From: Hornefia butyriciproducens
Lineage (GTDB): Bacteria; Bacillota; Clostridia; Peptostreptococcales; Anaerovoracaceae
Length of the DNA: 64,000 nucleotides
NCBI RefSeq assembly: GCF_009695915.1
Contig: NZ_VUMZ01000003.1
Location: 62,001-126,000 of the forward strand
Reading direction: 5' to 3'
Of this stretch, positions 22,140 through 35,947 are shown piece by piece. Both the position numbers and the translations under genes were made by a program. Position 1 is the stretch's first letter. Each line of letters starts with the position of its first letter. A model generated the notes under the pieces. It ran no database searches, was not told the DNA's origin, and was given only the letters and a program-made list of their open reading frames with translations.

Positions 22140-23435
22140 ATGTTTGGCCGGAAACGACTCAATATGAAAAACGCGGCACGCAACAGACAGTGGAATATCA
22201 GAATAACCAACAGAAAGGAGAGAAGAAGAGCCAGAGCGAAGACTTCCTTCGTCTCGGATCTTGTAGATATGAGCATCAAGGAAATGAATGAAATGGCGGT
22301 GATTGCTGATCTGACCGGACAGTTCCGGAATCTTCTGATGGATCAGCTCAGCCGTGTGATGGAGATGGAAGAAGGCAGCAAACCGCCGAAAAATTTCAGG
22401 GAACTCAGCAAAATCACCATCGGAATCTGCCCCGGCGACGGAATCGGACCGATCATCATGGAACAGGCAGAACGTCTCCTGCGGGTCGTTCTGCGTGATG
22501 AGATCTCCTCCGGCCGTATTGTGCTGAAGCCTATTGAAGGACTGACTATAGAAAACCGCCTTCAGAAAATGGAGGCAGTTCCGGAGGACGTTCTGGAGGA
22601 GATCCGCAAATGCGATGTTCTCCTGAAGGGTCCCACCACCACGCCTAAGGGCGGAAGTCTGGAAAGTGCTAATGTTACGCTTCGGCGGGAGCTGGATCTG
22701 TATGCCAATGTCCGTCCGGTCAGTGTGCCGGAGAAGGGAATCGACTGGATATTTTTCCGTGAGAACACTGAGGGTGAATATGTTCTGGGCAGCAAAGGTG
22801 TTGAGGTTCCGGGAAAGCTTTCCTTTGATTTCAAGGTAACCACAGAACCGGGAACGCGGAGAATCGCCAGGAAGGCGTTCGACTATGCCAGGGACAACGG
22901 CAAGAATAAAGTGGCGATTGTCACAAAGGCGAATATCATGAAGAAGACGGACGGGAATTTCTCCCGGATCTGTCATGAGGTCGGGCTTCATTATCCGGGA
23001 ATTGAGATGGAAGACTGGTATATCGACATCATGACGGCGAATCTGGTCAATCCGGAAATCCGCAGTCAGTTCCAGGTCTTTGTGCTTCCGAATCTTTACG
23101 GCGACATTATCACTGACGAGGCGGCGGAAATTCAGGGCGGCGTCGGTACAGCAGGGAGCGCCAATATCGGAGATCAGTACGCGATGTTCGAGGCTATTCA
23201 CGGAAGCGCACCCCGGATGATCGAGGACGGACTGGGGGATTATGCCAACCCGGCCAGTCTGTTCAAAGCTGTGGTGATGATGCTCCGGCATATCGGATTC
23301 ACGGCCAAGGCAAACGGGCTGGAAAAGATTCTGGAGGAGTGTCTGGAAATCGAGAAGAGCGTGGTAGTTACCGGCTTCCCGGAGGGAGCAACCTGCAGGG
23401 AGTTTGCGGATTATGTAATCGGGAAACTCGATTAA
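22140..23435 (+). CDS. isocitrate/isopropylmalate-type dehydrogenase, probably NAD-isocitrate dehydrogenase
   Basis: Oxidatively decarboxylates isocitrate to 2-oxoglutarate in this context. The core shows ITIGICPGDGIGPIIMEQAE, PTTTPKGGSLESANVTLR (substrate Ser/Asn/Arg), FFRENTEGEYVLGSKG, the metal Asp run DIMTANLVNPE and GDIITDEAAEIQGG, and EAIHGSAPRMIEDG for the cofactor. The first ATG (22140) has GGAGG ten bases upstream but would add a very basic 50-residue leader (RKERRRARAKTS). The conserved protein begins near MNEMAVIADL (about 22284), so the true start may be there. The C-terminus is normal. Confidence 0.85.
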   Translation: MFGRKRLNMKNAARNRQWNIRITNRKERRRARAKTSFVSDLVDMSIKEMNEMAVIADLTGQFRNLLMDQLSRVMEMEEGSKPPKNFRELSKITIGICPGDGIGPIIMEQAERLLRVVLRDEISSGRIVLKPIEGLTIENRLQKMEAVPEDVLEEIRKCDVLLKGPTTTPKGGSLESANVTLRRELDLYANVRPVSVPEKGIDWIFFRENTEGEYVLGSKGVEVPGKLSFDFKVTTEPGTRRIARKAFDYARDNGKNKVAIVTKANIMKKTDGNFSRICHEVGLHYPGIEMEDWYIDIMTANLVNPEIRSQFQVFVLPNLYGDIITDEAAEIQGGVGTAGSANIGDQYAMFEAIHGSAPRMIEDGLGDYANPASLFKAVVMMLRHIGFTAKANGLEKILEECLEIEKSVVVTGFPEGATCREFADYVIGKLD

Positions 23436-23534
23436 GGCGCATAGCGGAGCAGTCTCCATTCAGCTGTGAGGTCTTCGCTGTGAGGGCCGGCGGAAAAACG
23501 AGATTAAAATAAAGTAAAATCCCGCACCGGAATA

Positions 23535-23650
23535 TTGACAACGGCGGGCAGTGTGATAAAATGCATTTGTCAGGCACGAATATACATTCTGCAGCGGAGA
23601 GAGAATATCAGAGAGACCGTGAGGAACATCGTTCTTCACGTCTCTTTTTT
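23535..23650 (+). promoter_or_regulatory. promoter and terminator-containing leader of the YitT-family gene
   Basis: Promoter TTGACA (23535-23540), 16-base spacer, TAAAAT (23557-23562). In the leader, GGAGAGAGAATATCAGAGAG (23596-23615) runs into a strong hairpin: AGAGA-C-CGTGAGGAAC (23612-23627), loop ATC, GTTCTTCACG-TCTCT (23631-23645), then T6. The terminator stands before the gene, so expression must depend on read-through or antitermination. The motif matches the leaders at 31154 and 31291. Confidence 0.7.
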
Positions 23651-23697
23651 TGTGACAGCCGGCAGAAAACTATTGACAGACGAAAGGGAAAGGACTA

Positions 23698-24552
23698 ATG
23701 AAAAGTATCAGGACAGCGGGTGTGAATATTTCTATGATTCTGCTGGGAATCGCATTGAACGCATTTGCGGTGGAGGCGTTTTGCCTTCCCTATGGTATTC
23801 TGGTGGGAGGCGCTACCGGGATCGGGCGGCTGCTGAATTATTTTACGGATATGCCAGTATCCATGGGCGTCATGTGTGTCAATGCGGCCCTGCTCGTGCT
23901 GGCTTTTTTCTGTATGGGGAAGCGGTACTCGGCCTCCATCGTTCTGGGAACTTTCCTCTATCCTGTGCTGATGGCTTTCTTTGAAGGAATTCCGCAGATT
24001 CGGCATATGGTACAGGACCCGCTGCTGGCGGCATTATGCGGAGGCGGTCTGATGGGTGTCGGAATCGGCCTGGTGATTCGGAACGGTGGAAGTCTGGGCG
24101 GTTCTGATGTTGTTCCTGTGATTCTTCATAAAAAAGCAAAGCTTCCCATCGCACCTGTCATGTACGGTCTGGATGTGGCGATTCTGGTGCTTCAGGGATT
24201 TCTGGCATCGCCGAATGAGATTATTCTTGGTATTCTTATGACGCTGACGTACACTGTCGTAGCCAACAAAACACTGCTGGCCGGCGGCGGTCACGTGCAG
24301 TTCATGATTTTCAGCCCGCAGAATGAGAAAATAAAAAAGCTCCTTGTGGAAAGGGGCTTCGGCGCCACGCTCCTGCATGGGAAGACGGCGTATTTCTCCC
24401 ATGAGACGGACGTTCTGATTACGATTCTTTCAGTGAGATACATGAATTATGTGAAGGATCGGATTCTGGAGATCGACGACAAGGCGTTCATGACAATCAG
24501 CAGTGTGAGAGAGGTGGACGGCCGCGGCTTTACCATCAGCATGGATTCCTAA
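23698..24552 (+). CDS. YitT-family membrane protein (DUF161/DUF2179)
   Basis: A 284-residue protein with five hydrophobic segments in the first 190 residues (SMILLGIALNAFAVEAF, LPYGILVGGATGIGRL, VLGTFLYPVLMAFFEG and others) and a C-terminal soluble DUF2179 domain (GHVQFMIFSPQNEKIKKLL, then VDVLITILSVRY-like strands). The family is widespread in Firmicutes and its substrate is not known. ATG at 23698 has AAAGGA before it. Its leader shares the antitermination-like motif with the ygc operons, which is a clue to its regulation. It converges with the next gene, the stops overlapping by four bases. Confidence 0.88.
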   Translation: MKSIRTAGVNISMILLGIALNAFAVEAFCLPYGILVGGATGIGRLLNYFTDMPVSMGVMCVNAALLVLAFFCMGKRYSASIVLGTFLYPVLMAFFEGIPQIRHMVQDPLLAALCGGGLMGVGIGLVIRNGGSLGGSDVVPVILHKKAKLPIAPVMYGLDVAILVLQGFLASPNEIILGILMTLTYTVVANKTLLAGGGHVQFMIFSPQNEKIKKLLVERGFGATLLHGKTAYFSHETDVLITILSVRYMNYVKDRILEIDDKAFMTISSVREVDGRGFTISMDS

Positions 24553-25103
24553 ACCATGCTGATGTATTTTATATGACCGGAGATAATCGCTCTCACATCT
24601 TTTATTTCTGTGGATTTCATAATGCGCTTGGGCAGACAGAAAGTGCTTGCGCTGTCCGGGCGGATGACAAAGATATCGTCGGTTTCAATAGCACGGGCGT
24701 CTTTGTCTCCCTCAAGTTCCTGCGGCTCCTGCCCGGGAATGCCGATAGTGCCCTCCGGACTGAGAACGATCCGGAATGTGCCGCTGGATCGAGCCACTGA
24801 CCGTGCACCGCGGCGCGCCTTCACAATGGGCATATAGACCAGATAAAACAAAAGAAGAACACACAGAATCACAATAAAGAAATAGTGGATCTTCCGGTTA
24901 TCCATGGCAAACAGCACCATCAGCACGATCGCGATGACGGACAGCCCCAAACCGGCGAAGAGGCGGAACCTTCTGTCCCATTTGAAAGACAGAAGGTAAA
25001 ACGCCTCATACGCTTCATCATAACTGAGCCGGTAGTCAAACCGACAGGCCGTGGAGGGCATCTCTGAAATCGGTGTTTTCGGCTGCTGTTTTCGTATGTT
25101 CAT
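24549..25103 (-). CDS. YcxB-like membrane protein
   Basis: A 184-residue protein with an N-terminal soluble part (FDYRLSYDEAYEAFYLLSF), two adjacent membrane helices at about residues 48-85 (FAGLGLSVIAIVLMVLF and YFFIVILCVLLLFYLVYMP) and a beta-rich C-terminal domain ending VRAIISGHIKYISMV. This layout is that of YcxB-like proteins, a poorly characterised Firmicute group. It is transcribed alone, convergent with the YitT gene. Function unknown. Confidence 0.7.
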   Translation of the reverse strand: MNIRKQQPKTPISEMPSTACRFDYRLSYDEAYEAFYLLSFKWDRRFRLFAGLGLSVIAIVLMVLFAMDNRKIHYFFIVILCVLLLFYLVYMPIVKARRGARSVARSSGTFRIVLSPEGTIGIPGQEPQELEGDKDARAIETDDIFVIRPDSASTFCLPKRIMKSTEIKDVRAIISGHIKYISMV

Positions 25104-25177
25104 AAATGCTCCTTAGCTCTTTTTTTTCGCCAAGCGATTTCCGTTTAGCTGCTTCCGGCGGAATTTTGTCAGCGTCG

Positions 25178-25279
25178 GCTGCGTGAGTTTCTCTGCGCTG
25201 TTGCGGGGTGAGTTCTCTCTACGCCGATGCTGCGTGAGTTTCCCTGGGCGATAGCTGGGTGAGTTCTCCCTACGCCGTT
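25178..25279. repeat. 51-bp tandem duplication spanning the stop codon of the BCCT gene
   Basis: Two units, 25178-25228 and 25229-25279, both starting GCTGCGTGAGTTT and ending CTACGCCG. Each unit has an internal half-repeat (GGGTGAGTTCTC). The BCCT stop (read on the minus strand) lies in the second unit and a copy of it lies in the first. Confidence 0.7.
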
Positions 25280-26904
25280 GTACTCTTTCCGGCTCCGGCA
25301 TTTTTCTTTTCCTGCCGTGCTTCCTCCTGCTCGGATATCAGGCGCTGAGAGGGCAGCGGCTGACCGTATTCATCGTAGTCTTCGCTGAATGTGTCGTATT
25401 TCGCCGGATTGACCATGACCTTCACAAAGGATACCGCGATCAGAATCAGAAGGAATACCACCGGGAATCCGCCCAGATTGGACAGGTACTTCAGCGCATC
25501 GGTGCTCTTGAAGGCAGTGATAAAGATCACGCACATCACCCCGATCGTAACACCCCAGACGATTTTCAGCCAGGTCGGAGATTCGGTATCTTCAGCGCTC
25601 AGACCGGTGGTGCAGAGACCTGACATAGCGTTTGTGTTAGAGTCTGATGCGGTAACGAAGGATACAAATACGATCAGCAGGAAGACCAGAATCGTGACGA
25701 TCGGAATCGGCATCTGATGCAGCACCGCATAGGTTGCCGAGGCGGTGCCGCCGTCTGTCATGGCTTTGTTGATTCCTTTCCCCGCCAGCTCATAGTAAAT
25801 GGAGGAGGAGGAGAAGAGCCCCAGCCAGGCGACTGAGAACAGCGCCGGATAGACGACGATGGTTCTGATCGCTTCACGCACGGAGAAACCGCGGGAGATC
25901 CTGCCGAGGAATACAGATGTAACCGGCATCCACGCCATCCAGTTGCACCAGTAGAAGATCGGCCACCAGTCTGCCCATTTGTCCCCGTCAGCAGCAGAGA
26001 GGAACAGGGACTGCTTGCAGAAGTCTGTCAGATATGCGCCGAATCCTTCGATGGTCAGGTTCAGAATGTAGAAGGTGGGGCCGAACAGGAAGACAAACAG
26101 GCCGAGCACCATATAGATCCTGGAGTTGATCGTGGACAGAATACGGATGCCGTTCATCACGCCGGAGGATGCCGAGGCGACAAAGGCGGCTACGATGATT
26201 GCAGCCACGATGGTCCATGTTGCAGCGTTGGATTTGAAGGAGTCGAAAATACTCGCGAGTCCGTCAGAGCAGAGGAATACTGCAGAGCCCATGCTTGCCG
26301 CCATTCCGCAGACCAGAGCCAGCAGGCAGATGACATCGACGACCGGCGAGGCTTTTTCTGCCGCAGGATACGGGAGCGCTGGATAGAGCATGCTGCCGAT
26401 GGAGTATTTTTTCTTCGCGTTATAAAACAGGAATGCGAAAAGAATCGCCGGAACGCCGTATATGCACATCGGAGTAAACGTCCATTCCAGGAAGATATCC
26501 TTCATGATGAAGGTAATCGCTTCCGGAGACTGGGCCTTTACTGATGCGGGAGGATTGTAGTAATGATACATCGGCTCCGCACAGGCCCAAAGCAGTATCC
26601 CTGCGGCCATGATCGTACAAAGGACGATCCAGACATAGTTCGCCATGTTCATAATCGGCTTCGCCTTCCGTCCGCCTATCCGGACCCGGCCGAAGGGCGA
26701 GATGTACGCAACGAGGATCAGGACCACACATGCGAATGCCATCAGTGCGAAGAGCCAGGAGAATTTATCCAGAATGAAATTCGTGATGGTCATGATGGTC
26801 GCATTAAATGCCTTGCCGCTGATGAAGTTCAGGGCGATCGTCGCAATGGCCAGCAGCCATGGGATCAGGAAGACGCCCCAGCGTATCTGCTTATTATTAC
26901 TCAT
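25270..26904 (-). CDS. BCCT-family betaine/carnitine/choline transporter
   Basis: A 544-residue permease with 12 membrane segments. The family signature is WWPIFYWCNWMAWMPVTSVF near residue 315, and the aromatic substrate box residues are in WACAEPMYHYYNPP (about 110) and this segment. BCCT proteins carry trimethylammonium compounds (betaine, carnitine, choline, butyrobetaine), either with Na+ or by exchange. The C-terminal tail is hydrophilic and Glu-rich. It is encoded 27 bases after the YgcP antiterminator, so it is likely cotranscribed with it. Feeding choline to the CutC compartment at 44-59 kb is an attractive possibility but not shown. Confidence 0.93.
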   Translation of the reverse strand: MSNNKQIRWGVFLIPWLLAIATIALNFISGKAFNATIMTITNFILDKFSWLFALMAFACVVLILVAYISPFGRVRIGGRKAKPIMNMANYVWIVLCTIMAAGILLWACAEPMYHYYNPPASVKAQSPEAITFIMKDIFLEWTFTPMCIYGVPAILFAFLFYNAKKKYSIGSMLYPALPYPAAEKASPVVDVICLLALVCGMAASMGSAVFLCSDGLASIFDSFKSNAATWTIVAAIIVAAFVASASSGVMNGIRILSTINSRIYMVLGLFVFLFGPTFYILNLTIEGFGAYLTDFCKQSLFLSAADGDKWADWWPIFYWCNWMAWMPVTSVFLGRISRGFSVREAIRTIVVYPALFSVAWLGLFSSSSIYYELAGKGINKAMTDGGTASATYAVLHQMPIPIVTILVFLLIVFVSFVTASDSNTNAMSGLCTTGLSAEDTESPTWLKIVWGVTIGVMCVIFITAFKSTDALKYLSNLGGFPVVFLLILIAVSFVKVMVNPAKYDTFSEDYDEYGQPLPSQRLISEQEEARQEKKNAGAGKSTTA

Positions 26905-26931
26905 ATAATACCTCCAGTTGTGATAATTTCT

Positions 26932-27585
26932 CTATTCTACGGATTTCCACACTTCGAGATTCGTGGTGGAAACTGCAATAGCGCCGGCGGAGAGTGCGCC
27001 CATGACGTCATCGGAATCCAGTACGAGTCCGCTGGCGACCAGTGGCTTCCCGTCCACCTCCTCCAGAGCGTAGCGGATCATTTTCCCGAGACCTGCGGGC
27101 ATCATCTCCACCACGTCCGGCCGGGTGTCGCGCACATGTTTTTTGATGTTATTGAAGGTGATGGTATCCAGCATGAAGAATCTCTGGATGGTGAAGAGCC
27201 CCAGTTCGTTGGCGCGTTTGATCAGATGGGGCTTGGTGCTGATGATGCCGTCAGCCTCGGTGAATTTCCGGATGAAATCCACACTGATCTCCTTGCTGGC
27301 CAGACCTGATATCAGATCAATATGCACCACGGCCATTTTTCCGGCTTTTTTTATTTCGTGCACGATATCCCGGATGGTGCAGATGTTTCCGTACAATACG
27401 TAGACAATTTCGCAGACGGATGAGCTGCTCTTCTCCAGCCATTCATCATTTTTGACGGCGGCGATGACCGGGCAACGCTCGGTGCTGTCATAAAAGAATT
27501 CCAGCAGTTCTTTCTTTCTCCGGGCCAGCTCGGCCTGTGTCCGCATATCGCCGACTTCCAGATTCAGTTTTTCAGAGTAGGACAT
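26932..27585 (-). CDS. ygcP: GlpP-family antiterminator (YgcP-like)
   Basis: A 217-residue TIM-barrel-like protein of the glycerol-3-phosphate responsive antiterminator family: CPVIAAVKNDEWLEKS, MAVVHIDLISGL, GIISTKPHLIKRANELGL, QRFFMLDTITF and VEMMPAGLGKMI, ending VASGLVLDSDDVMGAL. GlpP proteins bind leader mRNA when their phosphorylated ligand is present and prevent termination. Its place among ygcQ, R, U, W, yqcE and ygcE homologues identifies it as the YgcP type. Suitable terminator leaders occur at 31108 and 31249 and before 23698. ATG at 27585 has AAGGAG before it. Confidence 0.88.
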   Translation of the reverse strand: MSYSEKLNLEVGDMRTQAELARRKKELLEFFYDSTERCPVIAAVKNDEWLEKSSSSVCEIVYVLYGNICTIRDIVHEIKKAGKMAVVHIDLISGLASKEISVDFIRKFTEADGIISTKPHLIKRANELGLFTIQRFFMLDTITFNNIKKHVRDTRPDVVEMMPAGLGKMIRYALEEVDGKPLVASGLVLDSDDVMGALSAGAIAVSTTNLEVWKSVE

Positions 27586-27611
27586 TGTTTTCTCCTTGTA
27601 AATCGTATCTG

Positions 27612-27640
27612 CTCGTTAAGTCCACGTCGGACTTAACGAG
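27612..27640. promoter_or_regulatory. 12-bp perfect inverted repeat upstream of ygcP
   Basis: CTCGTTAAGTCC at 27612-27623 and GGACTTAACGAG at 27629-27640. No T-run follows on either strand, so it is either an operator, a processing hairpin between ygcQ and ygcP transcripts, or a weak terminator. Confidence 0.5.
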
Positions 27641-27752
27641 TGCTGACAATAGTTTGCTTGCAGTGTTGCAGCGCACAATCTGACGGTAATCGGTAATGTA
27701 CGCCGCAGTTCTGCATATGCGACAAATAAACACACTGAATCTGTATATTTTA

Positions 27753-28700
27753 TCATGGACTGCAATACTTTACCATAGCGCGGAGAAAATCTTTCCAGTC
27801 TCCGCAGATGCAGATGTCGGATTTCTTCATGATCGGCGCGTCCGGATCCCGATTCACAGCGATAATGGTTCCGCTGCCGGAGATGCCGGCGCAGAAGGCG
27901 GGAGATCCGCTGGCGCCCAATACGATGCAGAGCTTAGGATGGATCATGCTGCCGCTGACGCCCAGAAGCTCCTCCATCGGACGCCATGCGTTCATGACCA
28001 CAGGTCTGGACACCCCGAAGGCTGCGCCGAGCTGTTCTGCCAGTGCTGCAGCCTCATCTGCGCCGGCGCGGCTGCCCAGTCCGCGGCCGGCGGCAATGAC
28101 CAGACGGCTCTCTGTCAGGGAGGAGGACATGTGCTGCGGAACGAGATTCTGATTTGTCGGATTCAGAGGATCTGCAGGGAGGGTAACAGTTTCCGGGGCA
28201 TCTTCTCCCGACGCATCGCCCGGAGAAAGTCCGGCCGGCGCCGAAGCATTTTCGCCAGAAAGAGCAGACGGCTTTGAAATGTCCTCAACCGGCGCACCGC
28301 CTGCCGGGCAGCTTTTGTTAATCACGATACAAAAAGGCTTCCGGCGGAGCACAAAGTCGCCCCGGATATGTTCCGTGCACAGAGAGCGCACTACATGAAG
28401 ACCGTCATCGCAGAATCTCATTTCAGTCACGTCGACGGCAGCGGTGCCTCCGAGCCTCGCCGCCAGCCGCACCGCAAGCTCCCGCCCGGCGATGGATGCA
28501 GGGAACAGGATAATATCGTCTTCGGCACATAAGGAGACAAGGGAAATCAGCGCGGCTTCCGCCCGGCAGAAGGTGTCTCCGTTCAGGGAGATTTTTCGGA
28601 GATTCCGTGAACTGTCTGTGCAGTTTTGCAGGAATCCGGACAGTCTGCCCGAATCTTCTTCGGCGGATCCGGGATTCGGCAGGATAAGTGTGTAATTCAT
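27753..28700 (-). CDS. ygcQ: electron transfer flavoprotein alpha-type subunit (YgcQ-like)
   Basis: The FAD-binding Etf subunit of an Etf-linked dehydrogenase. The 315-residue protein has the C-terminal FAD domain: LVIAAGRGLGSRAGADEAA, FGVSRPVVMNAW, HPKLCIVLGASGSPAFCAG and AVNRDPDAPIMKKSD. Between the N-terminal and FAD domains (about residues 150-200) it carries a Gly/Ala/Ser/Glu-rich low-complexity insert (PSALSGENASAPAGLSPGD), which makes it longer than E. coli YgcQ (about 286). Start and stop overlap the neighbours by four bases (ygcR upstream). Electrons would come from YgcU. Confidence 0.88.
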   Translation of the reverse strand: MNYTLILPNPGSAEEDSGRLSGFLQNCTDSSRNLRKISLNGDTFCRAEAALISLVSLCAEDDIILFPASIAGRELAVRLAARLGGTAAVDVTEMRFCDDGLHVVRSLCTEHIRGDFVLRRKPFCIVINKSCPAGGAPVEDISKPSALSGENASAPAGLSPGDASGEDAPETVTLPADPLNPTNQNLVPQHMSSSLTESRLVIAAGRGLGSRAGADEAAALAEQLGAAFGVSRPVVMNAWRPMEELLGVSGSMIHPKLCIVLGASGSPAFCAGISGSGTIIAVNRDPDAPIMKKSDICICGDWKDFLRAMVKYCSP

Positions 28701-29566
28701 CGTGTTCCCTCCCTGATATATTCCTGAACAATCTGTTTCGCGATATCGTCGGTATCTCCCTCCATCTGCCGCGCGGCACGGCTCTGATCGATGGCGGAGA
28801 CGGACTGAAGTCGGATCCCGTTCTCCTTGAGTTCTTCAGAAAATTCGGAGGCAGAAATCACGGAAGGAGGATTGCTTCCGGAGGCCTTCCTCTGGCGAAG
28901 AGTCGGTATTCGCAGACAGGTGTCCGGTACATCGCCGATTGTGAGAAGGAGAGGGGTAGGCAGGTCTTCAGACAGAATTCCTGTATCTGTCTGGTGTTCT
29001 ATTCGGATGCGTCCCTCCGCACCGGCGGAAAATCCCGTGACCTCGGTGATGCAGGGAAACTGAAGAGCTTCTGCCAGGAGCAGAGGAAGCTGGCTGAAAC
29101 CGCTTACGCTACTCTGCGTACCCGCCAGAATCAGGTCAAAGGGTCCTCTCTTTCTGCAGTATTCTGCCAGAAGGGCGGCGTGCGATTCCTCGTTGTCCGG
29201 TCCGGGCCGATCGGTATCGATCCGGTCGGCGGACTGATATCCGAGTGCCGTCAGAGTGCGCAGAGCTTTGTCGGCCACAGCGTTTCCGAACGTGACGGCA
29301 GTCAGCCGAACTTCGCTGTCAATCGCCGCAGCCGCAGCGGAGGCGTGAGAACCGGCCGACGCAGCCGCAACGGAATCAGCAGAAGCGGCCGCTGCGGCGT
29401 CCCGGAAGCGCAGCGCCAGTTCTGCCGCGCTTTCGTCCTGAGCCTCCGGAACAGTTTTCACACCTGGGAAATTCAGGCGCGTATCGACAATATCGGAAGC
29501 CCATTCGGCTTCCGATATCAGATCCAGGTCAGGTATTATGTTGAAAACGGTCAGTATATTCATCAT
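28697..29566 (-). CDS. ygcR: electron transfer flavoprotein beta-type subunit (YgcR-like)
   Basis: Beta subunit paired with YgcQ. The 289-residue protein shows EtfB features: MNILTVFNIIPDLDLI, VTFGNAVADKALRTLTALG (AMP-loop region), FDLILAGTQSSVSGFSQLP and the recognition-loop segment DVPDTCLRIPTLRQRKAS. An Ala/Ser-rich insert (AAAAASADSVAAASAGSH) near residue 60-85 lengthens it compared with about 260 residues in E. coli. It begins on the last base of the ygcU stop codon, so translation is coupled. Confidence 0.88.
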   Translation of the reverse strand: MMNILTVFNIIPDLDLISEAEWASDIVDTRLNFPGVKTVPEAQDESAAELALRFRDAAAAASADSVAAASAGSHASAAAAAIDSEVRLTAVTFGNAVADKALRTLTALGYQSADRIDTDRPGPDNEESHAALLAEYCRKRGPFDLILAGTQSSVSGFSQLPLLLAEALQFPCITEVTGFSAGAEGRIRIEHQTDTGILSEDLPTPLLLTIGDVPDTCLRIPTLRQRKASGSNPPSVISASEFSEELKENGIRLQSVSAIDQSRAARQMEGDTDDIAKQIVQEYIREGTR

Positions 29567-31032
29567 TAAAAGTTCCAGGGATGTTCTTTGTCGTGTTTTA
29601 CCGGAATCAGGGTGCCCATATTCATGACGCCGTTGGGATCGAAGGCGTACTTCAGCGTTTCCAGCATATAGAAGGAAGAACCGTATTCCTCCCAGACATA
29701 ATGTGCTCTGGCTTTTCCGAGTCCGTGGTGATGGGCGATGGAGCCGCCGAACCGTACGGTTTCCTCGCAGATGATCCGGTTGATCAGATTGTGATATTTG
29801 TTGATTTCGTCTTCCGGTCTGCAGTCCACGACATTGTAGTAATAGACAAAGTACATGTTGGTTCCGTTGATGTAGCTGTGGGAGGAGTGTCCGCCGATCA
29901 TGGTCAGATCCGGAACTTCGTTGGTGATCCGCTCTACGACGGAGGCATAGATTTTGTAAATGCAGTCCCAGCAGCCGGAGATCTCAGTGGTGATTCCGAT
30001 GTTGTCGGTTGCCAGGATCTCCTTCTTTTCCTGAGCGATCTGCTCAGCACCCCAGTTGAGGTGGTTGAACCAGGTTTCAATCAGCGAAGCGTCCACAGGA
30101 GTGACGCCTTCGATCTTCCTCACGATTTCATCGATTCCTTCCGCAGTTGCCTTTGTAATAGAAGCAGGCCCCTCTGCCATGAATAGAAGCACGTTTTCGC
30201 CGTCCGCCCAGTCGAAGTTCATCTCGGCATCCTGCAGATCGTACAGGCGTGCGACAGAAGGTCTGTAACCCTCTACCATGACCTGACGCAGAGCCTGGAA
30301 TCCCTTTTCCATATCCTTGATCCGGTAGCCCAGGAAGCGGTTGTTTTCGGGCTGATATTTGAAGATCTTGACGGTAACCTCAGTAATGAAGCAGAGCGCG
30401 CCCTCGTTGCCCAGGACGATGTGACGGATGTCCGGTCCGACGGAACGCCGCGGCACATTCTTGATGCGGCAGACCTGCCCGCCCGGGAACACCACTTCGC
30501 ATCCCACCAGCATGTCTTCGATTCCGCCGTACAGGGTGGAAAACTGACCGATGCTGCGGGTCGCCACAAGCCCGCCCATCTGCGCGAGTGGCTTGGACTG
30601 CGGGGAATGACCTGTCGTCAGGCCCTGTTCCCGCAGGCTGTCCTCCAGCGACTGGAGGGGCACACCGCACTGGCAGGTGACCTGCATGCTCTCCTTGTTG
30701 ACCTCGAGAACCTGATTCATTTCCGAACCGTCGATGACGACGGAATTCTCCAGCGCTGTTTCCAGGCCGCCCTCGATGGCGGAATGACCGGTGCGGGGAA
30801 CAACGTTGACGCCGTTTTCATTGGCGAACATCAGAACGTTTCTGACCTCTTCGGTGTTCTTTACATATACGACGGCGGCAGGGATGGGCTGCGTGTAAAC
30901 CTCGTGGCACTGCTCAAACTTTCTGTAGCGGTCGATGCTGCTTTCCTTCAGTACGGTTTCATCGGTGATTACCCGGTCTTCTCCGAGAATGTTCACCAGA
31001 CCTTTTACGATTTCTTCCCTTGCGAGTGACAT
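29566..31032 (-). CDS. ygcU: FAD-linked dehydrogenase of the GlcD/LctD type (YgcU-like)
   Basis: A 488-residue flavoprotein. The PCMH-type FAD domain (about 35-215) includes VVPRTGHSAIEGGLE, CQCGVPLQSLEDSL, TTGHSPQSKPLAQMGGL and GNEGALCFITEVTVKI; the C-terminal FAD-oxidase domain has SHSYINGTNMYFVYY and GGSIAHHHGLGKARA with the HHH cluster of 2-hydroxyacid and alkyl-glycerol type enzymes. Its operon partners are Etf subunits, as in Etf-linked lactate dehydrogenase of acetogens. The neighbours, however, are those of E. coli YgcU (484 residues), whose substrate is unknown. First gene of the minus operon behind the leader at 31108-31214. Confidence 0.88.
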   Translation of the reverse strand: MSLAREEIVKGLVNILGEDRVITDETVLKESSIDRYRKFEQCHEVYTQPIPAAVVYVKNTEEVRNVLMFANENGVNVVPRTGHSAIEGGLETALENSVVIDGSEMNQVLEVNKESMQVTCQCGVPLQSLEDSLREQGLTTGHSPQSKPLAQMGGLVATRSIGQFSTLYGGIEDMLVGCEVVFPGGQVCRIKNVPRRSVGPDIRHIVLGNEGALCFITEVTVKIFKYQPENNRFLGYRIKDMEKGFQALRQVMVEGYRPSVARLYDLQDAEMNFDWADGENVLLFMAEGPASITKATAEGIDEIVRKIEGVTPVDASLIETWFNHLNWGAEQIAQEKKEILATDNIGITTEISGCWDCIYKIYASVVERITNEVPDLTMIGGHSSHSYINGTNMYFVYYYNVVDCRPEDEINKYHNLINRIICEETVRFGGSIAHHHGLGKARAHYVWEEYGSSFYMLETLKYAFDPNGVMNMGTLIPVKHDKEHPWNF

Positions 31033-31107
31033 AACGAATCTCCTTTCGATATTTCTGTATGGTCGAATGTTTCATCGTTCCGCCGGCTGTCTTCTGTCAG
31101 AGCAATA

Positions 31108-31214
31108 GAAAAATAACTCGTCGGACACAGAACAAACACTGTGGAACGAGTTACCGTCTCTGAATCTCTTAACGTAACTGAAGTAATCTTATCAGTCCCG
31201 GACGGATTTGTCAA
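31108..31214 (-). promoter_or_regulatory. promoter and antitermination-type leader of ygcURQ(P)
   Basis: On the minus strand: -35 TTGACA (31214-31209), 17-base spacer, -10 TAAGAT (31091 region; plus-strand 31186-31191). In the leader, AAGAGATTCAGAGACGG (31170-31154) runs into a terminator: TAACTCGT (31153-31146) pairs with ACGAGTTA (31121-31114), with an inner CACAG/CTGTG helix, followed by five T. The arrangement copies that of the divergent leader at 31249. Confidence 0.72.
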
Positions 31215-31248
31215 CAGGATAATGAGAAAGTTTCTGAAAATTTGCGGA

Positions 31249-31357
31249 TTGACAAAGTTTCGGCTTTGTGCTATTATCGCATTAATTACCGGGAGAGACA
31301 GATCAGAGAGCGGTAGTTCAGGTACATTGCTGTACGCTGAATTGCCGCTCTCTTTTT
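31249..31357 (+). promoter_or_regulatory. promoter and antitermination-type leader of yqcE-ygcW-ygcE
   Basis: Promoter TTGACA (31249-31254), 17-base spacer, TATTAT (31272-31277). The leader has GGGAGAGACAGATCAGAGAG (31291-31310), whose last bases form the foot of a long hairpin: AGAGAGCGG (31305-31313) pairs with CCGCTCTCT (31345-31353), the inner part TTCAG/CTGAA and GTACA/TGTAC, then T5. A terminator ahead of the gene plus a GlpP-family protein in the cluster points to antitermination. Confidence 0.75.
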
Positions 31358-31441
31358 GTTTACAAAGGGCGATGACGCGCGTTAAGTCGCAGATTCTGTC
31401 CTCCTGCATGGAAATCAGAGACATTTGGAGGAAATATTATT

Positions 31442-32701
31442 ATGAACAGAGAATTTGTAAAAAAGTGGGGAACACTGCTGCTCCTCGCTGCCGGCGCAGG
31501 GATTATTTTCCAGCTGCCGTACATCAGAGAGACATTTTATCCGCAGATTCAGAAAGCAATGAATCTGACGAACAGCCAGATGGGACTGCTGTCCTCGGGA
31601 TATGCGACGATGGCGACCCTGTCCTATTTCATCGGGGGAGCGGTCGCAGATAAGTTCTCGGCTCGGAAACTGCTGACCTTTTCCTTTATCGCGACGGGAG
31701 CCCTCGGACTTTGGTTCTCCACATTCCCGAGCTTTACCACGGCACGTATCATCTTTGTACTGATGGGAATCTCCAGCATCATCACATACTGGTCCGCATG
31801 CATCAAAGCGACGAGAATGCTGGGAACAGAGGACGAGCAGGGACGCCTGTTCGGATGGCAGGAGGGCCTGAGAGGCATCATGAACGCACTGCTTGTATTC
31901 GGAATGACTGCGGCGTATGCACATATTTCCAGAACGGCAGGGGAAGTCGCGGGAGCATCTGCCGCAATCAAGGTATGCGCCGTCGTTGTGATCATCATCG
32001 GCGTTCTGAACTTCATATTCATCGAGGATACCGAGAAGAATGAGGAAGGCGAGAGCGTTCTCGAGCTTACAAAGGGATTGTTCAAGGCACTGACAATTCC
32101 GCGTGTATGGCTGCTGGTGGGCATTATCTTCGCGGCATATAGTGTTTACGGCCTGATCGGATATGTCAACACGTATGCGGTCACCTATTACGGCCTTTCC
32201 GAGACGATGGGCTCGACGCTTGGCGGAATCCGCTATCTGCTCCAGGGCGTCGGCGGAATTGTCGGAGGATTCCTGGCCGACCGGTACCATTCAAGGATTA
32301 AAGTCATCGTGGGCGGATGTGTGCTGCTGATGATCTCCTTCGGCCTTTACATTGTTCTGCCGGTGCAGGCCGGACTCGTGGGTGCGGTGATCGGAAACTT
32401 CTTCTTCGGACTTGTCTTCATCTATGCGGTGAGAAGTCAGTACTTTGCGGTTCATCAGGACGCCGGAATTCCGGTGGAGATGAGCGGAAGAGTCTCAGGT
32501 ATTGCTTCTGCACTGGGCTACACGCCGGATCTGTTCATGTATACTCTGGTCGGATCCTGGATGGACCAGTATGGTGCGGCCGGATTCAAGATGACATGGG
32601 GCTATGCGGTGGCAGCTGCAGGCGTCTGCATCGTGCTTTCACTGGTGCTCAGCAGAGTGATCCGCAGCAAAGCGAATGCGGCAGAAAACGGAGCGGCGTA
32701 A
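31442..32701 (+). CDS. yqcE: MFS permease (YqcE/YihN-like)
   Basis: A 419-residue major facilitator with 12 membrane segments, FVKKWGTLLLLAAGAGIIFQ at the start, the loop-2 motif GGAVADKFSARKLL, and the second-half repeat GGFLADRYHSRIK. It most resembles the YihN/YqcE subgroup of sugar-acid-like permeases. In E. coli yqcE lies within the ygc cluster together with ygcW and ygcE, exactly as here. It is first in the plus-strand operon and presumably imports the pathway substrate. The AGGAAATATTATT site precedes ATG 31442. Confidence 0.85.
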   Translation: MNREFVKKWGTLLLLAAGAGIIFQLPYIRETFYPQIQKAMNLTNSQMGLLSSGYATMATLSYFIGGAVADKFSARKLLTFSFIATGALGLWFSTFPSFTTARIIFVLMGISSIITYWSACIKATRMLGTEDEQGRLFGWQEGLRGIMNALLVFGMTAAYAHISRTAGEVAGASAAIKVCAVVVIIIGVLNFIFIEDTEKNEEGESVLELTKGLFKALTIPRVWLLVGIIFAAYSVYGLIGYVNTYAVTYYGLSETMGSTLGGIRYLLQGVGGIVGGFLADRYHSRIKVIVGGCVLLMISFGLYIVLPVQAGLVGAVIGNFFFGLVFIYAVRSQYFAVHQDAGIPVEMSGRVSGIASALGYTPDLFMYTLVGSWMDQYGAAGFKMTWGYAVAAAGVCIVLSLVLSRVIRSKANAAENGAA

Positions 32702-32777: not shown

Positions 32778-33566
32778 ATGCGTAATATTAATGATTTTTC
32801 AATGGATTTCTTTTCGCTGAAGGGAAAAAACGCTATTGTGACAGGCGGCTGCAGCGGCCTGGGACAGGGTTTCTCTCTGGCACTGGCCAAGGCAGGTGCG
32901 AACATCTTCTGCTTCGCGGCGGTGAATGACGACGGAACCACACAGAAGCTGATTGAAGACTGCGGCGTAAAATATCATTTCATGCAGGGCGATATCATGG
33001 AGGACGGAATCTGTGACAAGGTCGCGGAGGAATGTGTCCGCGTGTTCGGAAGCGTCGATATTCTGGTGAACTGCGCCGGAATCTGCAAGATTGCTGACGT
33101 CCTGGACTTCGGCAGAGAGGAATGGGATCCCATGATCGGCATCAACCTGACCGGCGCATTTGATATGAGTCACGCAGTCGCGAAATACATGATTCCGCAG
33201 AAGAGCGGTCGCATCATCAATATCTGCTCGCTGTTCAGTTTCCTGGGCGGACTGGGTTCGCCGGCCTATGCGGCCATGAAAGCCGGACTGATGGGCCTGA
33301 CCAAGGCTTATGCGGATGAGCTGGGACAGTACGGAATCACGGTGAACGGAATTGCGCCGGGATATTTCCAGACAGCGATGACTGCCGGCACCGGAAGCGG
33401 GAACGAGGATGACCCGAAATACATCAAAATCAAGGAGCATATTCCAATGGATCGCTGGGGCGAGCGTCAGGATCTGATGGGAGCGATGGTATTCCTGGCC
33501 AGCAAGGCGGCGGATTATGTGAACGGAACCGTTCTGGTAGTGGACGGCGGATATCTGGTGCGGTAA
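32778..33566 (+). CDS. ygcW: short-chain dehydrogenase (YgcW-like)
   Basis: A 262-residue classical SDR. The cofactor loop is TGGCSGLGQGFSLALA, the NAG motif is NCAGI, catalytic Ser lies in INICSLFSFLGG and the YxxxK pair is YAAMKAGLMGL; the C-terminus GTVLVVDGGYLVR is typical. The N-terminal FSMDFFSLKGKNAIVTGG resembles KduD/2-deoxygluconate dehydrogenases. It oxidises or reduces a sugar-like alcohol in the ygc pathway; the substrate is unknown. Its gene is followed after 19 bases by ygcE. Confidence 0.88.
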   Translation: MRNINDFSMDFFSLKGKNAIVTGGCSGLGQGFSLALAKAGANIFCFAAVNDDGTTQKLIEDCGVKYHFMQGDIMEDGICDKVAEECVRVFGSVDILVNCAGICKIADVLDFGREEWDPMIGINLTGAFDMSHAVAKYMIPQKSGRIINICSLFSFLGGLGSPAYAAMKAGLMGLTKAYADELGQYGITVNGIAPGYFQTAMTAGTGSGNEDDPKYIKIKEHIPMDRWGERQDLMGAMVFLASKAADYVNGTVLVVDGGYLVR

Positions 33567-33585: not shown

Positions 33586-35016
33586 ATGAGTGAGAAATAC
33601 ATTATTGGAATTGACGAGGGATCCCAGAGCGCAAAGATCTTAATCTTCGACACAAAGGGACATATTGTCTGCGAGGGCAGACATCCTCTTAAACCGTATA
33701 ATCTACCGGAACCGGGGCATGTGGAGCATCCGGATGATGACTGGTGGGACGCCATCTGCGAGGCCGGAAAAAAATGCATGGCCGCCTTCCGGGGAGATCC
33801 GAAGGATATCGTCGGAATCGGTCTTTGTACCATACGCTACTGCCGCGCCTATCTGGACGAGAACTGCATGCTTGCACAGCCGGCGCTGTCCTGGATGGAT
33901 GTCCGGGTTTCTGCACCTTACGTACATGAAAACCCAAAGGTGAAGTACATCGTCGCATCTTCCGGATATATCACGTTCCGGCTGACCGGCGAGAAGAAGG
34001 ATTCTGTCGCCAACTATGAAGGCGGATGGCCGGTGGATGTGGATACCTGGACCTGGTCGGAGGATCCGCAGGCGTATAAGGACTGCGGCATGCCCCGGGA
34101 AATGCTGTTCGAACTTGTGAAACCGGGAGATGTCCTGGGATGCGTGACCGCGGAGGCGGCTGCCGCAACGGGATTTCCGGAGGGCGTTCCCGTGGTTGCG
34201 ACAGCGAACGACAAGGCGGTTGAAGGCCTGGGAACCGGCTGTATGGGAGACGACACCGTGTGCCTGTCGCTGGGGACATATACCGCAGCGATGATGGAGG
34301 GTAAGGAATTTCTGCGGGATACAAAGAATACCTGGCCGAAGTTCTCCTGTGTTCCGGATAAGTATCTTTACGACACCTGGGGAATCCGGCGCGGCATGTG
34401 GACCGTCAGCTGGTTCCGGGATGTTCTGGGCAACGGCTACGCGAAGGAAGCGGCTGCGAAAGGAATGTCCGCAGAAGAGATGCTCAGCATGGAAGCGGAA
34501 GGCGTTCCCGTGGGCAGCGACGGCCTGATGACCGTGCTGGACTGGCTGCCCTGGGTAGATGCCCAGTATAAGAAGGGAATCATGATCGGATTCGACGGAC
34601 GGCACACCCGGGCGCATATTTACCGCTCGATTCTGGAGGCGGTCGCCCTGACGATGAAGAAATATATCTTCGATATGACAGATGAGGTTGGAGTAGACAT
34701 AAAAAAGATTATAGTAACCGGAGGAGGCTCAGGGAGCGATCTGTTCATGCAGATCATCGCGGACGTCATGAACATCCCGACTGTGCGGAACGAGGTGACC
34801 GGTGCGGCCGGACTGGGAGCGGCCGTCTGTGCAGCTGTCGCCGCAGGCGTTTATCCTTCCTTCGAGGATGCTGTCGCGAATATGGTGCGCTTCTCTGACC
34901 GGTTCCGGCCGATCCCGGAGAACACAGAGGTCTATGACAAAATGTACCCGATTTACTGGGATATCACGAATCATACCGATGCGATTCTGAAAAAAACATA
35001 TGAAATCTTTAAATGA
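33586..35016 (+). CDS. ygcE: FGGY-family carbohydrate kinase (YgcE-like)
   Basis: A 476-residue sugar kinase of the ASKHA fold: YIIGIDEGSQSAKILIFD (phosphate 1), PEPGHVEHPDDDWWDA, a YLDENCMLAQPALSWMDVR substrate segment, VATANDKAVEGLGTG with DDTVCLSLGTYTA, and the adenosine motif KIIVTGGGSGSDLFMQIIAD. Length is normal for FGGY (about 480-500). Its product, a phosphorylated polyol or sugar, is a plausible ligand for the GlpP-type protein encoded by ygcP, which in the parent family senses glycerol 3-phosphate; this is inference. Confidence 0.88.
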   Translation: MSEKYIIGIDEGSQSAKILIFDTKGHIVCEGRHPLKPYNLPEPGHVEHPDDDWWDAICEAGKKCMAAFRGDPKDIVGIGLCTIRYCRAYLDENCMLAQPALSWMDVRVSAPYVHENPKVKYIVASSGYITFRLTGEKKDSVANYEGGWPVDVDTWTWSEDPQAYKDCGMPREMLFELVKPGDVLGCVTAEAAAATGFPEGVPVVATANDKAVEGLGTGCMGDDTVCLSLGTYTAAMMEGKEFLRDTKNTWPKFSCVPDKYLYDTWGIRRGMWTVSWFRDVLGNGYAKEAAAKGMSAEEMLSMEAEGVPVGSDGLMTVLDWLPWVDAQYKKGIMIGFDGRHTRAHIYRSILEAVALTMKKYIFDMTDEVGVDIKKIIVTGGGSGSDLFMQIIADVMNIPTVRNEVTGAAGLGAAVCAAVAAGVYPSFEDAVANMVRFSDRFRPIPENTEVYDKMYPIYWDITNHTDAILKKTYEIFK

Positions 35017-35140
35017 TAAAAACAGCGCAGTCTGTCAGATCAGAGTCAGACCGGACGGGGCGCGCTGAACCACAGCGTATCCCTGCGGTGCCGGATGCTC
35101 CGGCTTCGCGGGGTCGCTTTCTTTCAGGGAGGTGTTTTTA

Positions 35141-35947
35141 TTGACCAAAGTCCAATCAGAGATGTTTGATGCGAACCGTCTGATCCTCGTCGTGAATGAT
35201 GACGGAGTGCGTTCCCCCGGAATCGCTGCGGCCGCGGAAGCCGCCGCAGCGTTCGGAGAGGTGATGATTACAGCTCCGGTGAGTCAGCAGACTTCAATGG
35301 GACGGGCATATCCGCGGTATCCGGACCTCGGTGTCATCGAACGGATTCCGGTGCGGGTCGGAGAACGGGAGATTTCTGCTTACGGAATTCACAGCTCTCC
35401 CGCACACGCGGCGGCATACGGTATAATAGAAATTGCGGACAGAAAACCGGATCTGGTGGTCAGCGGGATCAATCTGGGTGCCAATCTGGCGCGGTCGATT
35501 ACCTGCAGCGGAACACTCGGCGCCTGTTTTGAAGCGGTCAGTGAAGGCGTCCCGTCCCTGGCGATTTCGCTGGAAACCCCTGTGGAAGCGATCATGAAGC
35601 ACGATTTCAGTGAGGACGATACCGAATTCGGCAGCGCTCGCGGTGTTACGGCATTTTGGATCGAAAAAATTCTGAGGGAAGGGATGCCGCGGGGTGCGGA
35701 GATCCTGAACGTGAATGTTCCGTACAGGCGTATCGGACCGGAGGAATTCAGGATGACACGTCTGGACAGTCAGAATTATTATGTCCTGGAGAAACTGCCT
35801 GAGAGAGACTGGAGCAGGCCGTATACCATGGATTTTAAAATCCGGTTCGAGGAGGCGGATCTGCTTCCGGAGGGAGATATCCGGGCGGTATGCGTGGATC
35901 GTATCACATCGGTGACGCCACTGGGATGGGATCTGACTAAAGATTGA
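35141..35947 (+). CDS. surE: SurE-type 5'/3'-nucleotidase
   Basis: Dephosphorylates nucleoside monophosphates. The 268-residue protein has the family metal site in LVVNDDGVRSPG (DD), APVSQQTSMGRAYP, the HSSPAHAAAYGI stretch, VVSGINLGANLARSITCSGTLGA (core SGINLGAN) and the closing NVNVP and ITSVTPLGWD segments. TTG at 35141 is the best start: AGGGAGG lies eight bases upstream, whereas the ATG at 35162 has none. It may continue the ygcE operon (125-base gap) and is followed by the acyl-CoA dehydrogenase. Confidence 0.85.
   Translation: MTKVQSEMFDANRLILVVNDDGVRSPGIAAAAEAAAAFGEVMITAPVSQQTSMGRAYPRYPDLGVIERIPVRVGEREISAYGIHSSPAHAAAYGIIEIADRKPDLVVSGINLGANLARSITCSGTLGACFEAVSEGVPSLAISLETPVEAIMKHDFSEDDTEFGSARGVTAFWIEKILREGMPRGAEILNVNVPYRRIGPEEFRMTRLDSQNYYVLEKLPERDWSRPYTMDFKIRFEEADLLPEGDIRAVCVDRITSVTPLGWDLTKD

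Follow-up and report, generated by a model that had tools for sequence, protein, structure and literature searches.

Double-GAGA hairpins overlapping intrinsic terminators as candidate targets of the GlpP-family protein YgcP in Hornefia butyriciproducens and other bacteria

The window analyzed here is a stretch of 64,000 nucleotides from Hornefia butyriciproducens (contig NZ_VUMZ01000003.1, positions 62,001 to 126,000), and positions given below refer to it. It contains three transcription units that start with leaders of a common architecture, and it encodes YgcP, a putative antiterminator protein of the GlpP family (Pfam accession number PF04309). An initial annotation, made from the letters of this DNA only, had proposed that the three leaders belong to a GlpP-type antitermination regulon. 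The features of the leaders and the regulator gene are the following.

23535-23562, plus strand: promoter of leader 1, TTGACA-16-TAAAAT, consensus matches 11/12
31214-31186, minus strand: promoter of leader 2, TTGACA-17-TAAGAT, consensus matches 10/12
31249-31277, plus strand: promoter of leader 3, TTGACA-17-TATTAT, consensus matches 11/12
23598-23614, plus strand: double-box motif of leader 1, AGAGAGAATATCAGAGA
31169-31157, minus strand: double-box motif of leader 2, AGAGATTCAGAGA
31294-31309, plus strand: double-box motif of leader 3, AGAGACAGATCAGAGA
23594-23620, plus strand: antiterminator hairpin 1, GCGG / loop AGAGAGAATATCAGAGAGA / CCGT, weak with 4 bp
31149-31179, minus strand: antiterminator hairpin 2, AGTTAC / loop GTTAAGAGATTCAGAGACG / GTAACT
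31284-31318, plus strand: antiterminator hairpin 3, AATTACCG / loop GGAGAGACAGATCAGAGAG / CGGTAGTT
23610-23647, plus strand: intrinsic terminator 1 with the second GAGA box as 5' foot, alone -21.3 kcal/mol, z -5.5
31107-31161, minus strand: intrinsic terminator 2, core arm TAACTCGT/ACGAGTTA, 3' part -18.4 kcal/mol, z -5.0
31305-31353, plus strand: intrinsic terminator 3, with both the second GAGA box and the 3' arm of the antiterminator in its foot, -35.3 kcal/mol, z -8.0
26932-27585, minus strand: ygcP, GlpP-family (PF04309, E=1.4e-59) putative antiterminator protein, 46% identical to E. coli YgcP

Promoter scan, motif scan and folding confirmed that each leader combines a near-consensus promoter, a double motif of the AGAGA type and an overlapping intrinsic terminator; the sites had been named correctly by the initial annotation, with positions 1-3 bases off. 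The three best sigma-70 matches within 23300-31700 are exactly these promoters, all with TG before the -10 box. In the free folds terminators 1, 2 and 3 reach -27.9, -21.8 and -35.3 kcal/mol (z -3.6, -2.3 and -6.4). That the terminator foot includes the end of the motif is correct for leaders 1 and 3 but not for leader 2, where the core begins within the antiterminator 3' arm and the terminator reaches the AGAGA box solely by pairing with the U tract. The word TCAGAGA carries little weight alone because it is over-represented in the window (30 seen vs 12 expected, a 2.5-fold excess, mostly outside the leaders), probably owing to codon and purine bias. In the genome of 2.44 Mb the pattern AGAGA-N0-8-TCAGAGA gives 14 matches at 13 sites, the reversed pattern 2, and reading of these sequences revealed a terminator after the double motif at three of the 13 sites, all in the window. 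Occurrence before unrelated terminators at random frequency, which had been named beforehand as evidence against the regulon, was not observed. Without a terminator the linear motif was not accepted as evidence, since TCAGAGA is in excess in the window and AGAGA-TCAGAGA is also found inside coding DNA.

Each leader contains a second, competing hairpin in which the upstream flank of the motif pairs with its downstream flank, and because of this pairing both boxes come to lie in the hairpin loop. The CGGT or CCGT that had been described as following the motif is indeed present, but it is the 3' arm of this antiterminator stem, an element which had been overlooked. The two folds are mutually exclusive because the antiterminator 3' arm, and in most leaders also the second box, is at the same time the terminator 5' arm. 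According to folding, nascent RNA that ends at the 3' arm adopts the antiterminator fold in leaders 2 and 3, whereas the completed terminator beats the antiterminator by 8-20 kcal/mol in the leaders. Leaders built in this way correspond to a switch with off as its default state, which must be assisted to remain on.

Selection on the stem itself was addressed in two ways, as the variable loops could not be aligned by MAFFT: covariation was counted on a uniform set of ygc-type leaders and additionally by swapping flanks. In the ygc-type alignment five of seven pairs are changed on both sides; none of 500 shuffles attains the covariation score, and sliding the partners destroys it. Among 21 leaders picked by motif and terminator, without any stem rule, the best stem scores 6.22 compared with 3.74 after swapping of the 3' flanks (0/5000 as high). 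In a wider clostridial set the values are 5.10 vs 4.07, with 4.76 as maximum of 2000 swaps; the gain is smaller because most members share GGC/GCC. A count of inner pairs was dropped as evidence, the stems having been picked by eye. These data bear on the idea that there is no true antiterminator and that YgcP would simply cover the 5' foot of the terminator via two single-stranded GAGA boxes which the stem presents. In its favor are the position of the second box, which most leaders have within the terminator foot, the marked weakness of hairpin 1, and the example of TRAP and HutP, which act on NAG/GAG repeats in unpaired RNA (PMC7430163); nevertheless, compensatory changes keep the stem paired across phyla and terminator arms repeatedly make use of the antiterminator 3' arm, which renders this mode of action improbable.

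The same switch is widespread among 28 YgcP loci from GTDB (mostly enterics and two Bacillota). In E. coli K-12 the divergent ygcW and yqcE leaders, next to ygcP, have the order stem, double-GAGA loop, stem and terminator, with the hairpins AGTTACC-agagataatgagaaa-GGTAACT and ATTACT-agagacctgagaaa-AGTAAT, and about 20 other enterics show the same layout. Streptomyces clavuligerus has AGTTACT-agagaccagagaac-AGTAACT before a gene for a short-chain dehydrogenase (SDR), behind which an oxidase dependent on flavin adenine dinucleotide (FAD) and an FGGY kinase are encoded. The switch is also found at the YgcP locus of Enterococcus gilvus and in Clostridia with a module of SDR, FAD oxidase, electron transfer flavoprotein (ETF) and FGGY kinase. 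A covariance model built from ten such hairpins detects the YgcP loci of Serratia, Pantoea, Hafnia, Streptomyces, Enterococcus and Clostridia, some of them being training rows. Applied to 297 whole genomes of the window's order, with matches at E>1e-4 taken as chance, its six best matches fall in three genomes, each at most ~7 kb away from a gene of the YgcP clade; two of these genomes had supplied two of the ten training rows, the third none. In an E. coli-type genome the ygcW and yqcE leaders are the two best matches. In Serratia microhaemolytica leaders and ygcP are found on different contigs. Three related genomes (L080 6943, L081 12789, L083 6945) have GACTA-GAGAATAGAGA-taaAGTC with a terminator near a gene from a side branch of YgcP, and in L080 and L083 TGAGA-N3-TGAGA leaders precede the regulator gene itself, which suggests autoregulation.

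The presence of a GlpP-family protein gene between the leaders is confirmed: PF04309 covers YgcP over its full length (positions 1-173 of 173, 200.9 bits vs a cut-off of 27), solved structures of the GlpP type are homologous (3kts with E=5.4e-23, 1vkf with E=1.4e-13), and these matches to Pfam and PDB sequences fix the fold family. A tree of 84 relatives places YgcP together with E. coli YgcP and apart from GlpP (support 100/99). This clade comprises 21 rows (support 100/99) with a core of 15 rows that have all the linked modules (support 95/73). Both branches have K118, R135, E160, G186 and L187 in common, among others, but S116, V188, A204 and T208 near the C-terminal phosphate-type loops differ consistently between them. 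From these shared and differing residues we infer that the ligand of YgcP would be phosphorylated, related to that of GlpP but different from it.

Beyond the YgcP branch a general rule was applied that demands an intergenic GAGA-N2-8-GAGA, an overlapping terminator and a gene on the same strand within 400 nt. It yields 48 matches in 33 of 68 PF04309 loci (1.26 Mb) and a single one in 40 control stretches (0.8 Mb) drawn from genomes of the same sample, the latter looking like a genuine unlinked leader. Permuted words give 0-2 matches; AGAG, which reads the motif in a shifted register, is the exception with 21. Among Clostridia the GlpP form reads GGC-N1-2-GAGA-N3-GGAGA-GCC. In its strict version this pattern occurs 31 times in the 297 genomes (reversed, 0), in 14 genomes altogether, each of which belongs to the 132 that carry a PF04309 gene (p 8e-6). 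In Cytobacillus, a relative of B. subtilis used as stand-in, glpF and glpD are preceded by GTGA-aagagattaagagac-TCAC and GGT(T)-agagaccacgaga-(G)ACC. Two preliminary hairpin scans were discarded: a loose one was useless with 89 matches vs 100 for the reversed motif, and another gave 11 vs 2-11 in controls, after which the criteria for terminator, spacing and intergenic position were tightened. Because the same switch adjoins GlpP-family genes from Clostridia to E. coli and Streptomyces, the double-GAGA hairpin is very probably the RNA docking site of the GlpP family. The suggestion of the initial annotation that an RNA target of an orphan member of this family comes into view here is thereby supported, with the hairpin and not the linear motif as the element. 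We consider it probable that this hairpin serves the whole family as recognition element across several phyla including E. coli, and that YgcP represents a second branch which responds to another phosphorylated metabolite and controls a catabolic module.

Some strict hairpins are located far from PF04309 genes and are candidate unlinked targets (G035:C1:2012505, G101:C1:2405506, G011:C1:2519085, G078:C65:262409 and G090:C18:77221). In genome G170 (L118 3227, 6874 and 10482) double-GAGA leaders precede genes for a GlpA-like oxidase, a DctP-type TRAP transporter and an MgtC-family protein, apparently a GlpP regulon wider than the glycerol genes.

The genome encodes a second PF04309 protein (G000:C1:43445-43960; L018 11428-11991) that is 34% identical to YgcP; its gene adjoins PHP and DJ-1/PfpI-like genes and not glycerol genes, and proteins closely related to it are frequent in the window's family. 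As two members coexist in one genome and the protein family has its RNA element in common, this second protein could be the cognate regulator, or both could act. We regard this as quite unlikely, given that ygcP sits within a controlled operon, that AGTTAC-type leaders elsewhere (including E. coli and Streptomyces) adjoin genes of the YgcP clade only, and that such leaders were not seen with the common second protein in the window's family.

Attenuation by a different RNA-binding regulator such as PyrR, whose site (ARUCCAGAGAGGYU) also contains the word CAGAGAG (PMC7430163), or by a metabolite-sensing riboswitch, is very unlikely. At curated cut-offs no cis-regulatory Rfam family matches anywhere in the window, and at a lax threshold leaders 2 and 3 give matches of chance level only. 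Pyrimidine genes are absent from those under control, the occurrence of the element follows that of PF04309 genes, and the loop is in our judgement too small for a typical ligand aptamer.

Leader 1 precedes the following gene.

23698-24552, plus strand: YitT-family membrane protein (PF02588 and DUF2179), downstream of leader 1

The link of this gene with the regulon, as drawn by the initial annotation, stands as far as promoter, boxes and overlapping terminator are concerned, but leader 1 has the weakest stem of the three and is kept in one close relative only. In this relative (G291) the promoter is identical at 28/28 positions, and promoter, hairpin and terminator show 93-100% identity vs 78% upstream, with changes that spare boxes and stem. 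No further YitT gene with such a leader was found in the relatives examined; G145 and G196 lack a YitT homologue at E<=1e-15, and in G121, G096 and G048 the homologues are located away from the YgcP locus. This pattern, together with the weak stem, would also fit a situation in which only leaders 2 and 3 are YgcP switches and the YitT gene has an ordinary attenuator before it, in which a purine stretch happens to contain a double AGAGA. We find this rather doubtful, since promoter, boxes and overlapping terminator all match at a distance of 7.5 kb from the other two leaders, the site is among only three of 13 genomic motif sites with a terminator next to it, and the changes in G291 leave boxes and stem intact. 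Thus, the YitT gene probably belongs to the YgcP regulon, with leader 1 being the least certain of the three.

Leaders 2 and 3 precede two operons with the following genes.

29566-31032, minus strand: YgcU-like FAD-linked oxidase (PF01565, PF02913), first gene behind leader 2
28697-29566, minus strand: probable ETF beta-type subunit, assigned by position with no Pfam match; an ETF gene has the same place in L084 and L085
27753-28700, minus strand: ETF alpha-type subunit (PF00766)
25270-26904, minus strand: BCCT transporter in the same operon as ygcP; in L085 BCCT genes lie directly behind such leaders
31442-32701, plus strand: MFS transporter (YqcE-like), first gene behind leader 3
32778-33566, plus strand: YgcW-like SDR, leader 3 operon
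33586-35016, plus strand: YgcE-like FGGY carbohydrate kinase, leader 3 operon

The gene next after the kinase (35132-35947, plus strand) encodes a SurE-type 5'/3'-nucleotidase that may be a phosphatase of the module. BCCT transporters are part of YgcP-linked modules in the window and in clostridial L085 (5772-7367 and 7915-9519), and the module of Enterococcus gilvus (L140 10474-13757) includes an ABC transporter of the osmoprotectant type; these transporters hint at a substrate that may carry a quaternary amine or a similar osmolyte group.

From these findings a mechanism can be proposed. RNA polymerase would start at a strong, constitutive-looking promoter and the nascent RNA would first form a weak hairpin, the loop of which displays two GAGA boxes. 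Unaided, this hairpin would lose to the overlapping terminator and transcription would stop. YgcP loaded with a phosphorylated metabolite, probably the product of the FGGY kinase, would bind the double-GAGA loop and hold the antiterminator, which would allow read-through into three units, i.e. the oxidase/ETF/ygcP/BCCT operon, the MFS/SDR/kinase operon and the YitT gene. As ygcP would be expressed from its own controlled operon, this would amount to positive feedback.

Several points weigh against this scheme. Hairpin 1 has 4 bp only and does not form in the free nascent fold, and for the YitT link the evidence comes from this genome and one close relative. The loops comprise 19 nt in the window vs 14-15 in E. 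coli, and the covariance model scores the window hairpins weakly. In 35 of the 68 PF04309 loci the searched stretch contains no leader of this kind, and the element may be variable there or located at another place. Finally, a literature search found no binding, read-through or ligand data for YgcP. On balance, comparison with enterics, Streptomyces, Enterococcus and Clostridia strongly supports the proposed three-transcript GlpP-type regulon, and we hold it to be likely, with some confidence, that YgcP controls all three leaders and that these act as conditional attenuators of transcription.

If this is true, the hairpin offers a genome-readable handle on the regulons of uncharacterized PF04309 proteins and makes those of orphan genes in this family predictable. 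At the uncharacterized ygcW and yqcE genes of E. coli, antitermination that depends on a protein is to be expected, and the hairpin also offers a route to the ligand of YgcP and to the substrate of the ygc genes.

Antitermination by GlpP in B. subtilis has been known since the 1990s. No paper on YgcP (including that of E. coli) or on a family-wide element was found, nor does Rfam 15 contain a family that matches the double-GAGA element; the B. subtilis work of the 1990s on GlpP may describe part of the site. GlpP bound to glycerol-3-phosphate binds the glpD antiterminator of B. subtilis (PMC7430163, review), and the three target promoters in this organism each have a GlpP site and a terminator (PMC9604022). 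This system (glpD, glpFK and glpTQ leaders) is the closest parallel, with a regulator from the same PF04309 family, three targets, and the same succession of promoter, GlpP site and intrinsic terminator in the 5' untranslated region. However, GlpP controls glycerol genes and answers glycerol-3-phosphate, whereas YgcP forms a separate clade and, judged by gene content, would regulate a module of oxidase, ETF, SDR, FGGY kinase and transporter instead of the glpF, glpK and glpD genes typical of a GlpP ortholog. With BglG and LicT, which act on a ribonucleic antiterminator (RAT), the proposed YgcP switch shares the principle of a weak hairpin that overlaps a terminator and is stabilized by a protein (PMC7430163). 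LicT, however, belongs to an unrelated protein family with an unrelated RNA and reads two stem bulges, while here two GAGA boxes are presented in a loop and the protein has no phosphotransferase system (PTS) phosphorylation domains. PyrR sites resemble the window in having a purine-rich CAGAGAG-like word in a protein-bound attenuator hairpin, but PyrR stabilizes an anti-antiterminator and promotes termination of pyr genes, and the window has no cis-regulatory Rfam match at cut-off. The E. coli ygcP system is like the window in the kinds of module genes and in the switch in both divergent leaders (the proteins being 46% identical); it differs in that ygcN-ygcO-ygcP are apart from the leaders and that no BCCT or YitT gene is present in the stretch read. 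CRP is predicted to target the ygcW-yqcE spacer (PMC3105977). The mechanism class as such is known; the uncharacterized YgcP branch exposes an RNA element that is probably family-wide.

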